Source of the DNA: Thermoproteota archaeon
GTDB lineage: Archaea; Korarchaeota; Korarchaeia; Korarchaeales; Korarchaeaceae
DNA: 64,000 nucleotides
NCBI GenBank assembly: GCA_027491915.1
Contig: JAOZGC010000003.1
Span: 1 to 64,000, forward strand
Reading direction: 5' to 3'
The position numbers and the translations under genes are program-made. The notes below the pieces were generated by a model, which was not told the origin of the DNA, made no database searches, and saw nothing but the letters and a program-made list of their open reading frames with translations. Each line of letters opens with the position of its first letter. The first letter of the stretch is position 1. Shown here in pieces: positions 7,141 to 59,191 of the stretch.

Positions 7141-7251
7141 GCCGGGGTACCCTAGCCAGAGGGCCTCCGGCCCGGCGAAGCCAAGGGGCCGGACTCGAGA
7201 TCCGGTGGCCCCGAGCGGGCCACGAGGGTTCGAATCCCTCCCCCGGCGCCA
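7141..7251 (+). tRNA. tRNA-Ser(CGA) with probable D-loop intron
   Basis: Acceptor stem GCCGGGG/CCCCGGC, anticodon stem-loop CCGGA-CTCGAGA-TCCGG giving anticodon CGA, a long class II variable arm, T-arm GAGGG-TTCGAAT-CCCTC and encoded CCA. The D-loop is about 20 nt too long. Removing 7160-7179 gives TAGCCAGGCCAA, like the D-loop of the tRNA-Leu in this window. The removed piece forms GGGCC-TCC-GGCCC flanked by 3-nt bulges, a near-BHB. The intron boundaries are inferred. Confidence 0.9.
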
Positions 7252-13413: not shown

Positions 13414-13502
13414 GCCGGGGTAGCTCAGTGGGAGAGCGCTCGGCTGAAGGCCGCCGGGCGGAGACCGAGCGGTCGTGGGTTCGAGTCCCACCCCCGGCAC
13501 CA
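13414..13502 (+). tRNA. tRNA-Phe(GAA) with a 14-nt anticodon-loop intron
   Basis: Acceptor GCCGGGG/CCCCGGC, D-arm GCTC/GAGC, anticodon stem CTCGG/CCGAG, T-arm GTGGG-TTCGAGT-CCCAC, encoded CCA. Between the stem halves there are 21 nt instead of 7. Removing 13450-13463 at the standard 37/38 site leaves CTGAAGA with anticodon GAA. The intron folds as CCGC-CGG-GCGG and ends in AG before A, with a relaxed rather than perfect BHB. Confidence 0.93.
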
Positions 13503-16854: not shown

Positions 16855-17490
16855 CTACCCCCGCTTCGCCTGCCCCCTCTTGTACCTTCCCCTCCTCCTG
16901 ATATCTTCCACCCTGGATAGGACCGAGGCGGCGTCAGGAGCCTCTCTCGAGTAGGACGAGAAGAAGGTCGAGATGACCTCCGGGGCCGCCGACGGGGCCA
17001 GCCCGGTGACCGACTGCTCGAAGACGTGGAGGTCTACCGCCCTGTCCTCCACCGACCTGGAGTACCTGGCCAGCCCGAAGTCGATGAGGCACACCCTCTC
17101 TCCCTCGCCGAAGATCACATTCAGGGGGGTCAGGTCGTTGTGCACTATACCAGCCGCGTGGAGCTTGGCGACCACCCTGCCCAGCTCGTCCACGCCAACG
17201 GGGGACTCACCCCCCTCGAGCACGCTCGCCAACGTGGTGCCGCGTACCTCCTCCATGACTATGGTATCCCCCCACACGTCCAGGACCGCGGGGCAGGGCA
17301 CGCCCATCCTCTTCGCCTTGATAAGTATGCTCGCCTCGATCCTGGTTCTCCTGATCCTCAGGAGCCTATCAAGGCTGGGGTGTCTGTACCTCTTCTCGGG
17401 CCTGATCTTGATCACGGCTGGCTTCCCTAGGTACTCCCCCCTGTACACCTCAGCCTCGGCCCCTCTGGCCAGGAGCTCCATCACCTCCAT
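16855..17490 (-). CDS. bud32: KEOPS complex kinase/ATPase Bud32
   Basis: Atypical small protein kinase of 211 residues that powers t6A synthesis in the KEOPS complex. It has LARGAEAEVYRGE (compact P-loop), the catalytic lysine in AVIKIRPEKRYRHPSLD, the IVHNDLTPLNVI catalytic loop and LIDFGLA (DFG). The C-terminus ends in the basic RRRGRYKRGQAKRG tail typical of Bud32. Here it is a stand-alone gene, not fused to kae1. Its start overlaps the 3' end of the interrupted pcm gene by 10 bp. Confidence 0.95.
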   Translation of the reverse strand: MEVMELLARGAEAEVYRGEYLGKPAVIKIRPEKRYRHPSLDRLLRIRRTRIEASILIKAKRMGVPCPAVLDVWGDTIVMEEVRGTTLASVLEGGESPVGVDELGRVVAKLHAAGIVHNDLTPLNVIFGEGERVCLIDFGLARYSRSVEDRAVDLHVFEQSVTGLAPSAAPEVISTFFSSYSREAPDAASVLSRVEDIRRRGRYKRGQAKRG

Positions 17491-18187
17491 CCGAACCTCC
17501 CCCTCATCGGCACGAAGGCCACGTCTGTTATCTCTGCGGTCTCGTAACTCCCCTCATCCAACTTCCTCACCACGACGAGCCTCTGCCCGCCCCACCACGA
17601 GTGCGATCCCACGGGGAGCACCATCCTCCCCCCGGGCCTCAGCTGCCGCAGCAGGGGGGGAGGGGGGGCGGGCGCCGCGGCGGTGATCAGAATCCTGTCT
17701 GGTCTCCTGGAGATCGGTAAACCCCCGCTCCCGTCGCAGGCGAGCACGTGAACCCTGTCGGCGTAGCCAGCCTTCATCAGGTTTGCCCGCGCCCTCTTGG
17801 CGAGGCTCGGTATTATCTCAGAGGTGTACACCCTGCCGCCCCCCCTGGCGGTGGGTCCACCCGGGGAGACTATCTCCGCCAGCGTCGCGGCCTGGTACCC
17901 GCTGCCGGCGCCAACCTCGAAGACCACCATCCCCTCCTCCAGGGCGAGGAGCTCGTCCATCATGAACACCATGTCTCGCCCGGCCCGAGGCCGTGTGGCG
18001 CGCTGATGGTCTGCCCCTCGCCTATTGGAAGGGGAGTGTCCTCGTAGGCCGACGACCTGAGGTGTTCCGGGACGAACATCTCCCTGGGAACCCTCAGCGC
18101 CGCCCTCCTGACCCTATCCGATCTTATTATCCCCCTCATCTCGAGGCTGGCGACCAGATTCCTCCTGGCCTCCTCGAAGTTCGCCAT
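17481..18187 (-). CDS. pcm: Protein-L-isoaspartate O-methyltransferase, coding sequence split by a 20-nt insertion
   Basis: Repair enzyme that methylates isoaspartyl residues using S-adenosylmethionine. The first segment, 18187-17995, encodes [11 protein letters not shown] to [17 protein letters not shown]. The second, 17974-17481, encodes [29 protein letters not shown] (SAM motif I) through to the C-terminus. They lie in different frames. Removing 17975-17994 joins them as SAPH-MVFMM, exactly the family order, giving about 228 residues. The insertion folds into a BHB core that predicts exactly these cuts, so I read it as a spliced intron rather than a pseudogene. A frameshift error remains possible. 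ATG 18187 is chosen by family length, and ATG 18202 is possible. Confidence 0.85.
17975..17994 (-). other. Predicted 20-nt BHB intron inside pcm mRNA
   Basis: Reading the transcript: CGCC (18000-17997), bulge ACA (17996-17994), CGGCC (17993-17989), loop TCG, GGCCG (17985-17981), GGCG (17980-17977), bulge AGA (17976-17974). The 4-bp helix CGCC/GGCG and inner helix CGGCC/GGCCG are perfect. Cutting after the second base of each bulge releases 20 nt and restores the conserved reading frame. The outer helix is weak, so this is the relaxed class. Confidence 0.75.
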
Positions 18188-18215
18188 CTTCCAAAGGTTC
18201 ATTTATCCGAGGTGG

Positions 18216-28250: not shown

Positions 28251-28343
28251 GGGCCGGTAGCGCAGCCGGTAGTCGGTCCAGGTCCGGCCGAACGCGCCCG
28301 CCTCGCACGCGGGAGGTCGGGGGTTCGAGTCCCCCCCGGTCCA
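28251..28343 (+). tRNA. tRNA-Ala(CGC) with a 20-nt D-arm intron
   Basis: Acceptor GGGCCGG/CCGGTCC contains the G3-U70 pair that specifies alanine. Anticodon stem-loop is CCCGC-CTCGCAC-GCGGG with anticodon CGC, and T-arm is GGGGG-TTCGAGT-CCCCC. No CCA is encoded. The D-arm holds 20 extra bases, 28273-28292. Removal restores GCGC-loop-GCGC as in tRNA-Ala(GGC). BHB: helix CGGT/GCCG, bulges AGT and AAC, inner helix CGG/CCG. Confidence 0.93.
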
Positions 28344-44411: not shown

Positions 44412-45863
44412 ATGTCGGCGGCCTCCGTCTTGGAGAGGATCGACGAGGTAAGGTGGATGCTGCCTCGGTCTTACAAGAGCGGGATGAGGGTGCCGGGACT
44501 GGTCATCGCGACGGAGAAGCTCTTGCGCCACATAGAGAGAAAGTCCCTGGACCAGCTGGCCAACGTGGCCTCCCTGCCCGGAATATACAGGTACTCCATG
44601 GCCATGCCCGACGTGCACACCGGGTACGGCTTTCCGATAGGGGGCGTCGCGGCGTTCGACGCCTACGACGGTGTGATCAGTCCCGGAGGGGTCGGCTTCG
44701 ACATAAATTGCGGCGTCAGGGTTCTAAGAACAGATCTCCGTGAGGAGGATGTCAGACCACTCCTGTCTCGACTCGTGGAGACGATCTTCTCCATGGTCCC
44801 GTCTGGGCTTGGAAGCAGGGGGAGACTCAGGCTGAGCGAGCCCCAGATAGACGAGGTATTGATGAGAGGGGCAAGGTGGGCGGTCGATCAGGGATACGGG
44901 TGGGATCAGGACCTGGCCCACACCGAGGAGGGCGGATGCATGGAGGGCGCCGATCCCTCTGTCGTGAGCAGCAGGGCCAAGAGGAGGGGGGCTCCTCAGC
45001 TGGGGACGCTGGGAAGCGGAAACCACTTCTTGGAGGTCCAGGTGGTGGATAAGATATACGATGAGGCCGCAGCGCGGGCTCTGGGGATAGAGGGTCCCGG
45101 CCAGGTTACCGTCATGATCCACACCGGCAGCAGGGGGCTTGGCCACCAGGTGGCCTCCGACTTCCTGGAGGAGATGCTCTCCAGGGCCGGTCAACTCGAT
45201 TTCCGGCTCCCCGACAGGCAGCTGATATGCGCCTACGCCGGGACCAAGACCGCGGAGCGGTACTTCGCGGCCATGCGTGGGGCGGCCAACTACGCGTGGG
45301 CCAACCGGCAGATCATAATGCACTGGGTCAGGCAGGCCTTCGAGAGGGTGCTCGGCAGGAGCCCCGAGGACCTCGGCATGAGGTTGATCTACGACGTGGC
45401 CCACAACATAGCCAAGCTCGAGGAGCACGAGGTGGACGGCAGGACGGTTAGAGTTTACGTTCACAGGAAGGGGGCGACCAGAGCCTTCCCCCCAGGGAGA
45501 CCGGAGCTGCCTCCAGACTACAGGGAGGTGGGCCAGCCCGTCTTGATACCGGGATCCGAGGGGACCGCCTCCTACATCCTGATCGGAACTCGGAGGGCCA
45601 TGGAGGAGACCTTCGGCTCCGCGGCCCACGGGGCTGGCAGGATGATGAGCCGCTCGGCAGCCAAGAGGACCTACCGGGGAAGGCAGATAGTGGAGCAGCT
45701 GGCCAGCCGGGGGATAATAGTGAAACCGGCATCCTTCGCGGTGGCTGCCGAGGAGGCTCCCGGGGCCTACAAAGACGTGGACGAGGTCGCCTTGGCCACC
45801 CACAAGGCGGGCATAGCCAGGCTGGTCGTCAGGATGAGACCGATGGGAGTGGTCAAGGGTTGA
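44412..45863 (+). CDS. rtcB: RNA-splicing ligase RtcB
   Basis: GTP- and Mn-dependent ligase that joins tRNA exons after intron excision. The 483 residues show DVHTGYGFPIGGVAAFD, VGFDINCGVRVLRTDL (metal Cys), LGTLGSGNHFLEVQ (metal His), HTGSRGLGHQVASDF and AAHGAGRMMSRSAAKR with the guanylylated His. No intein is present, unlike some archaeal RtcB genes. Its presence fits the many spliced tRNAs and the proposed pcm intron. ATG 44412 follows GGGAGGTG. Confidence 0.97.
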   Translation: MSAASVLERIDEVRWMLPRSYKSGMRVPGLVIATEKLLRHIERKSLDQLANVASLPGIYRYSMAMPDVHTGYGFPIGGVAAFDAYDGVISPGGVGFDINCGVRVLRTDLREEDVRPLLSRLVETIFSMVPSGLGSRGRLRLSEPQIDEVLMRGARWAVDQGYGWDQDLAHTEEGGCMEGADPSVVSSRAKRRGAPQLGTLGSGNHFLEVQVVDKIYDEAAARALGIEGPGQVTVMIHTGSRGLGHQVASDFLEEMLSRAGQLDFRLPDRQLICAYAGTKTAERYFAAMRGAANYAWANRQIIMHWVRQAFERVLGRSPEDLGMRLIYDVAHNIAKLEEHEVDGRTVRVYVHRKGATRAFPPGRPELPPDYREVGQPVLIPGSEGTASYILIGTRRAMEETFGSAAHGAGRMMSRSAAKRTYRGRQIVEQLASRGIIVKPASFAVAAEEAPGAYKDVDEVALATHKAGIARLVVRMRPMGVVKG

Positions 45864-52407: not shown

Positions 52408-52508
52408 GGGCCGGTGGCGCAGTCTGGTAGCGCGCCCGCTTGGCAAGCGGCGTCCGAATCGCCCAGAGTGCGGGAGGTTCGCGGGTTCGAATCCCGCCCG
52501 GTCCACCA
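52408..52508 (+). tRNA. tRNA-Ala(GGC) with a 23-nt anticodon-loop intron
   Basis: Acceptor GGGCCGG/CCGGTCC with the alanine G3-U70 pair, D-arm GCGC/GCGC, anticodon stem CCCGC/GCGGG, T-arm GCGGG-TTCGAAT-CCCGC, encoded CCA. Thirty nt separate the anticodon stem halves. BHB: helix TTGG/CCAG, bulges CAA and AGT, inner helix GCG/CGC. Cutting removes 23 nt and leaves TTGGCAT with anticodon GGC. Confidence 0.94.
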
Positions 52509-59058: not shown

Positions 59059-59162
59059 GGGCCCGTGGCTCAGCCTGGAAGAGCGCCCGCCTTATATGGC
59101 GGCTCCCGCCACAAAGCCAGAGGAGAAGCGGGAGGTCCCGGGTTCAAACCCCGGCGGGCCCA
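59059..59162 (+). tRNA. tRNA-Ile(TAT) with a 30-nt anticodon-loop intron
   Basis: Acceptor GGGCCCG/CGGGCCC, D-arm GCTC/GAGC, anticodon stem CCCGC/GCGGG with 37 nt between. Removing 30 nt after CTTATA leaves CTTATAA with anticodon UAU, which reads AUA. The intron contains the hairpin TGGCGG-CTC-CCGCCA. T-arm is CCGGG-TTCAAAC-CCCGG. No CCA encoded. Most archaea use a modified CAU anticodon for AUA. Confidence 0.93.
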
Positions 59163-59191
59163 CTCCCCCCCGCGGGAGAGGTGGGAACCTC

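Follow-up and report, generated by a model that had tools for sequence, protein, structure and literature searches.

A probable bulge-helix-bulge intron within the coding sequence of an archaeal pcm gene

The pcm gene, which encodes protein-L-isoaspartate methyltransferase, is interrupted in the 64,000-nt stretch of archaeal DNA analysed here (the window). The locus raises the question of whether the interruption is an intron, a site of unusual decoding, a boundary between two genes, or an error. We consider it very probable from sequence comparison that the 20 interrupting nucleotides are an archaeal bulge-helix-bulge (BHB) intron of the pre-mRNA. Cutting, ligation and the need of splicing for an active protein are inferred.

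The interrupted pcm gene and its fold

The pcm gene lies at 18202-17481 on the minus strand and is broken by 20 nt at 17994-17975. A 208-nt frame from the ATG at 18202 (minus strand) ends in SAPH and runs into a short non-homologous tail, and a second, shifted frame begins with MVFMM at 17972 (minus strand). The upstream frame (18202-17960, minus strand) matches PF01135 positions 3-60 (E 9e-15); positions 61-207 are matched by the downstream frame (17972-17481, minus strand; E 4.5e-32). The two parts abut exactly with 0 residues lost or duplicated, and thus nothing is missing or repeated in the protein after removal of the 20 nt. The features of the locus are as follows.

17995..18202, minus strand: pcm exon 1 (ATG at 18202, another in-frame ATG at 18187; ends ...GCG CCA C; PF01135 3-60)
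17997..18000, minus strand: 5' strand CGCC of the central 4-bp helix, within exon 1
17994..17996, minus strand: 5' bulge ACA, predicted cut after 17995; invariant in 14 of 14 sequences
17975..17994, minus strand: predicted 20-nt bulge-helix-bulge intron ACGGCCTCGGGCCGGGCGAG, from the fold and comparison with relatives
17989..17993, minus strand: 5' strand CGGCC of the inner helix, co-varying with 17981-17985
17981..17985, minus strand: 3' strand GGCCG of the inner helix, co-varying with 17989-17993
17977..17980, minus strand: 3' strand GGCG of the central helix, supported by covariation
17974..17976, minus strand: 3' bulge AGA (ANA in all sequences), predicted cut after 17975
17481..17974, minus strand: pcm exon 2 (begins AC ATG GTG TTC, runs to the stop; PF01135 61-207)
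16855..17490, minus strand: downstream kinase gene (RIO/Bud32-like), overlapping pcm

The first-pass annotation had placed the pcm halves in different frames with 20 nt between them and had drawn the helix, and the exact PF01135 join and inspection of the sequence, base for base, agree with it. The inner-helix strands enclose a TCG loop. Cutting after the second base of both bulges, as had been proposed, excises exactly the 20 nt at 17994-17975 and joins SAPH to MV. The predicted spliced protein would yield a junction-spanning tryptic peptide containing ...ISAPHMVFMMDE...

The strict hBHBh' motif is absent, since no stacked outer helix lies beside the pcm bulge. The outer helix had been described as weak; it is missing altogether as a stacked helix, and what survives of that description is a possible distal 5-bp pairing (ACCAU/AUGGU). 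The pcm motif is therefore a relaxed HBh' form, a type that is accepted as belonging to the BHB class (PMC6379350, PMC12397907). Single-sequence folding of the pcm region was no better than that of shuffled sequences (z -0.5 to 0.3), and such folding is uninformative in DNA of 65% GC. For this reason the fold of this sequence alone could not prove the motif, whereas comparison with other genomes does. We counted three observations against splicing of pcm, namely the lack of a contiguous outer helix, the unexceptional fold of the sequence itself, and an Ile for Met replacement in one relative (G001).

Inserts at the same site in two phyla

In six relatives, a whole-genome search found the SAPH/MV junction likewise broken, by inserts of 20, 23, 23, 28, 29 and 29 nt. 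The pattern of invariant parts occurs in 7 of the 29 genomes of this phylum, by inference the Korarchaeota, with one match each, always in pcm and nowhere else in those genomes. SAPHMV is uninterrupted in species of genus g4, in three of genus g5 and in three deeper genomes of the phylum. One genome in the set (G007) we take to be Ca. Korarchaeum cryptofilum OPF8. All seven korarchaeal inserts read CGCC-(ACA)-inner helix-loop-inner helix-GGCG-(ANA)-CAT, with inner helices of 5-9 bp that differ in sequence. Every cell of the korarchaeal alignment is paired, and three pairs show compensatory change. Between G001 and G005, whose exons are 96% identical, most loop bases differ and 0 stem bases do. 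Aligning the pcm genes of relatives had been suggested as a check, and it puts the gap at one and the same codon, with lengths and sequences that vary but the same bulges and co-varying helices.

The coding strand of the central helix shows a further constraint. The Ala-Pro-His codons are GCG-CCA-CAC in 7/7 intron-bearing korarchaeal pcm genes, and CCA encodes this proline in 0/21 of the intronless genes and accounts for 9% of proline codons in this genome. The restriction of CCA to intron-bearing genes points to selection on the RNA, and not on the protein alone, at this strand.

When 217 archaeal genomes were searched with the joined protein, nearly all other pcm genes listed were intact, and in one distant genome (G136) the gene was broken at precisely this junction. 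The G136 DNA reads GCACCACA TAGTTAGCCCG TGG CGGGCTAACTA GGTGACACATGG; the insert matches the korarchaeal ones in site and type of bulge, its inner helix is 11 bp long, and CACC/GGTG stands in place of CGCC/GGCG. This replacement is found in two pcm genes of the second phylum. A pattern search of 228 genomes located pcm introns in families f64, f101, f110 and f120 of that phylum, each lying between both pcm exon matches; the search required ACA/ANA bulges and a CNCC/GGNG helix, so that unlike cases could be missed. Several other matches to the pattern in this phylum fell outside pcm and were set aside as chance. The gene is also split in G299, G300 and G301 (the last of family f111), which are candidate further cases. 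A stricter pattern, applied to 394 genomes across the domain, matched only the korarchaea and G136. The second phylum is probably Asgard/Promethearchaeota, a naming based on strong Ras-type GTPase genes, which number 6-38 per genome in the 11 second-phylum genomes tested versus 1-2 in two korarchaea.

Some further pcm copies in these searches deserve mention. G389 carries two with different introns (CACC/GGTG and CGCC/GGCG) on contigs C132 and C172; the bin is reported to be 12% contaminated, and the copies probably represent two strains. The pcm matches of G443 (C126:4766-5443) and G188 (C63, at a contig end) each contain one in-frame stop, possibly marking further introns.

In the joint alignment of 14 insert sequences, seven of them from the second phylum, all 126 of 126 base-pair cells are paired, with compensatory changes at 6 of 9 pairs. 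Both bases are changed in 22 cells, where shuffles give 5.6 +/- 1.9; slid controls reach at most 43% pairing. Two 3-nt bulges flank a 4-bp central helix in 14/14 sequences. Insert lengths range from 20 to 32 nt and include every remainder modulo 3. With excision at bulge position 2, PF01135 is restored here and so is the sequence of the orthologues, and precise excision restores the family sequence in every insert that could be read. The covariation together with the mixed lengths rules out both a sequencing error and a fixed frameshift and leaves bypassing very improbable.

These data bear on three other explanations. That the sequencing or the assembly is wrong here, or that pcm is dead, is scarcely credible. 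The assembly does contain other single-base frame breaks, in mobile-element genes and homopolymers, but 14 inserts of all different sequence share one site in independent genomes; against a dead gene, both exons are conserved and silent codon changes exceed replacements (14 versus 10 and 80 versus 40).

It is also highly improbable that the ribosome frameshifts at or bypasses the pcm hairpin while the RNA stays uncut. A stable hairpin directly follows the His codon, and in 8/14 sequences translation would resume right after a CAC codon, as a His hop needs; the landing codons are GAC, TAC or AAC in the other 6/14. The helix moreover pairs bases 5' of the take-off codon and the exact 3-nt bulges are kept, neither of which bypassing needs. 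With three length classes modulo 3, no single shift fits, and across the 14 inserts we found neither a constant shift nor matching take-off and landing codons.

The third explanation, which we likewise regard as most unlikely, is that each half is translated on its own, exon 2 from the ATG at 17972, and that the two chains then assemble. An ATG opens exon 2 in most cases, although G001 has ATT at this position and accordingly Ile instead of the conserved Met right after the junction. Separate chains would not need the residue-exact join and would leave the conserved, co-varying BHB unexplained. We thus retain the BHB intron as the reading of the pcm interruption.

Splicing enzymes and other introns of the genome

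The genome encodes both a splicing endonuclease (EndA) and an RtcB ligase.

44412..45863, plus strand: RtcB RNA ligase, the expected exon joiner (PF01139, E 4e-178)
L125:3985-5085, minus strand: EndA, single-chain splicing endonuclease (two PF01974 and two PF02778 stretches)

The C-terminal half of EndA has the A. pernix catalytic subunit as its closest PDB entry. Relaxed motifs are cut by endonucleases with a Lys-bearing auxiliary loop, CSL or ASL; in the CSL (crenarchaea-specific loop), Lys is followed by Pro or Val and a basic residue (PMC6379350, PMC12397907). Grafting the CSL on the two-unit A. fulgidus enzyme conferred broad specificity, and the P45A and R46A mutations in A. pernix drastically reduced cleavage (PMC6379350, PMC12397907). 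Following the definition of PMC12397907 (loop Lys, then Pro/Val, then Lys/Arg, near the active site), the EndA of this genome carries the motif as VEKPK, and by sequence alignment the loop would lie near the active site. Without a contiguous outer helix at pcm, a narrowly specific enzyme would leave the RNA uncut. In the proposed mechanism, the pcm pre-mRNA would fold as a relaxed HBh' in which exon 1 and the intron form the 4-bp central helix, and a 3-nt bulge on each side plus the inner intron helix complete the BHB. The single-chain endonuclease, aided by its CSL-type loop, would cut each bulge 3' of its second base, and RtcB would then join the exons into one continuous isoaspartate methyltransferase frame.

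Six tRNA genes in the window have introns, including a tRNA-Ile(GAT) intron of about 20 nt by length and the following.

7141-7251: tRNA-Ser(CGA), intron of about 20 nt, apparently in the D-arm at a non-canonical position (by inspection)
28251-28343: tRNA-Ala(CGC), intron of about 20 nt, apparently in the D-arm at a non-canonical position (by inspection)
13414-13502, 52408-52508 and 59059-59163: tRNA genes whose anticodon loops carry insertions of, by length, about 14, 23 and 30 nt

The first-pass annotation had grouped four introns (Ser, Ala, Ile and pcm) as each 20 nt long. The lengths hold approximately, and the implied size class does not, since the other tRNA inserts of about 14, 23 and 30 nt show that 20 nt is not a class.

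The cbf5 gene of this genome also has an insert, of 16 nt between GTL and D, the crenarchaeal position.

G000:C4:150428-150445 (L120): cbf5 intron, 16 nt, with almost no inner helix

Korarchaeal cbf5 introns at this position were found at L109, L111, L114-L116 and L118-L122, in korarchaeal lineages other than Korarchaeum (g4) and g5, which lack them; some, such as L116, have a full outer helix (GGGA/TCCC). The cbf5 of K. cryptofilum is listed as intronless (PMC2738675), in agreement with G007 here. In the second phylum, cbf5 is split at about position 70 in families f110, f111 and f120, and f64 and f101 have the pcm intron with cbf5 intact.

Screening this genome by tblastn with all K. cryptofilum ORFs gave clean inserts in only pcm and cbf5 among 942 proteins with a clear homologue here (E < 1e-10). 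This homology screen replaced a whole-genome scan for BHB motifs and coding frames without homology, which had returned 334 noisy candidates. Other frame breaks were rejected as not being clean inserts: a transposase (C3:76.4k), a resolvase (C3:77.3k), a G8 run (C4:398155) and two adjacent ABC genes (C4:549.7k). The TnpB-like transposase and the adjacent serine-resolvase-like gene (G000 C3:76112-77797), which lie outside the window and are both frame-broken without a BHB, are probably a decaying IS607-type element. A HEPN-like gene (G000 C4:612042-612451) has a -1 frame break (C4:612152) at GAGGGGGCCCC, which is either a sequencing error or a real frameshift.

Origin and significance

Comparison of EndA loci (L075-L094, L260-L269) relates the introns to the endonuclease loop. 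KP[KR] is present in 9/9 intron-bearing korarchaeal genomes in which EndA was found. In intronless g4, EndA has KPE or KPD in 15/16 genomes, G017 alone keeping KPR, and the g5 enzymes have KPQ, KPQ and KVP. Loss of the pcm and cbf5 introns in g4 and g5 thus accompanies decay of the CSL KP[KR] in 18/19 genomes. We rejected treating this association as statistically independent events, because only one or two independent pairs exist. On a tree of pcm and EndA built with the CSL columns removed, pcm changes state three times, cbf5 twice and the CSL twice. The simplest reading is that both introns were present in the class ancestor and lost in g4 and g5, and the data suggest that the introns were lost first and the loop decayed afterwards.

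A single clade of the intron-bearing pcm proteins from both phyla is rejected (AU p 0.0009), with G214 forming a long branch, so that the shared site is either ancient with many losses or a favoured site of repeated insertion. Independent gain by the two phyla is a serious candidate, with almost even prospects. The absence of a clade and of the insert from most archaeal pcm genes speaks for it, and with half of the motif (GCNCCACA) supplied by exon 1 this may be a proto-splice site. Against it, codon, phase, ACA/ANA bulges and CNCC/GGNG helix are the same in both phyla, and cbf5 introns too occupy one site across phyla; the pattern search presupposed these bulges and this helix, but G136 came from the protein search. 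A more tentative reading, somewhat less probable, is that the pcm intron was already in the common ancestor of the Korarchaeota and the Asgard-like phylum and was lost often, in korarchaea together with the cbf5 intron and followed by loop decay.

The nearest known system is the cbf5 pre-mRNA intron of Desulfurococcales and Sulfolobales (PMC2738675), likewise a short coding-sequence BHB intron (16-44 nt there) with an often relaxed motif, repeated loss and a predicted cut between bulge bases 2 and 3. The pcm intron differs in gene and site, occurs in two other phyla, and belongs to a lineage with a single-chain endonuclease instead of the heterotetramer of the cbf5 system (PMC2738675). Archaeal tRNA BHB introns share its motif, size range and presumed enzymes, whereas pcm is an mRNA in which one helix strand is also coding. 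The HVO_1309 intron of Haloferax volcanii is, like pcm, an mRNA substrate of the splicing endonuclease, but it lies in the untranslated 5' leader (PMC7714728) and the pcm intron interrupts a reading frame. As of 2020, cbf5 in Crenarchaeota was the only additional BHB intron reported besides the HVO_1309 leader (PMC7714728). That source names cbf5 alone, as the first-pass annotation had done in calling protein-coding BHB introns rare. We found no report of a pcm intron in the literature searched, which covers few subscription papers. The pcm gene would apparently be the second archaeal protein gene known to be spliced by the tRNA-splicing enzyme.

For more than 20 years cbf5 was the sole known spliced archaeal coding sequence, and pcm indicates that it is no freak. 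Coding-sequence BHB introns would have a wider range than expected, reaching beyond Crenarchaeota, apparently to the archaeal phylum closest to eukaryotes. Their presence at one codon in two phyla offers a natural comparison of gains and losses, and the tie between intron retention and a specific loop of the splicing enzyme is testable by single-residue mutation. In many such genomes, pcm and cbf5 may be annotated as pseudogenes or split genes.
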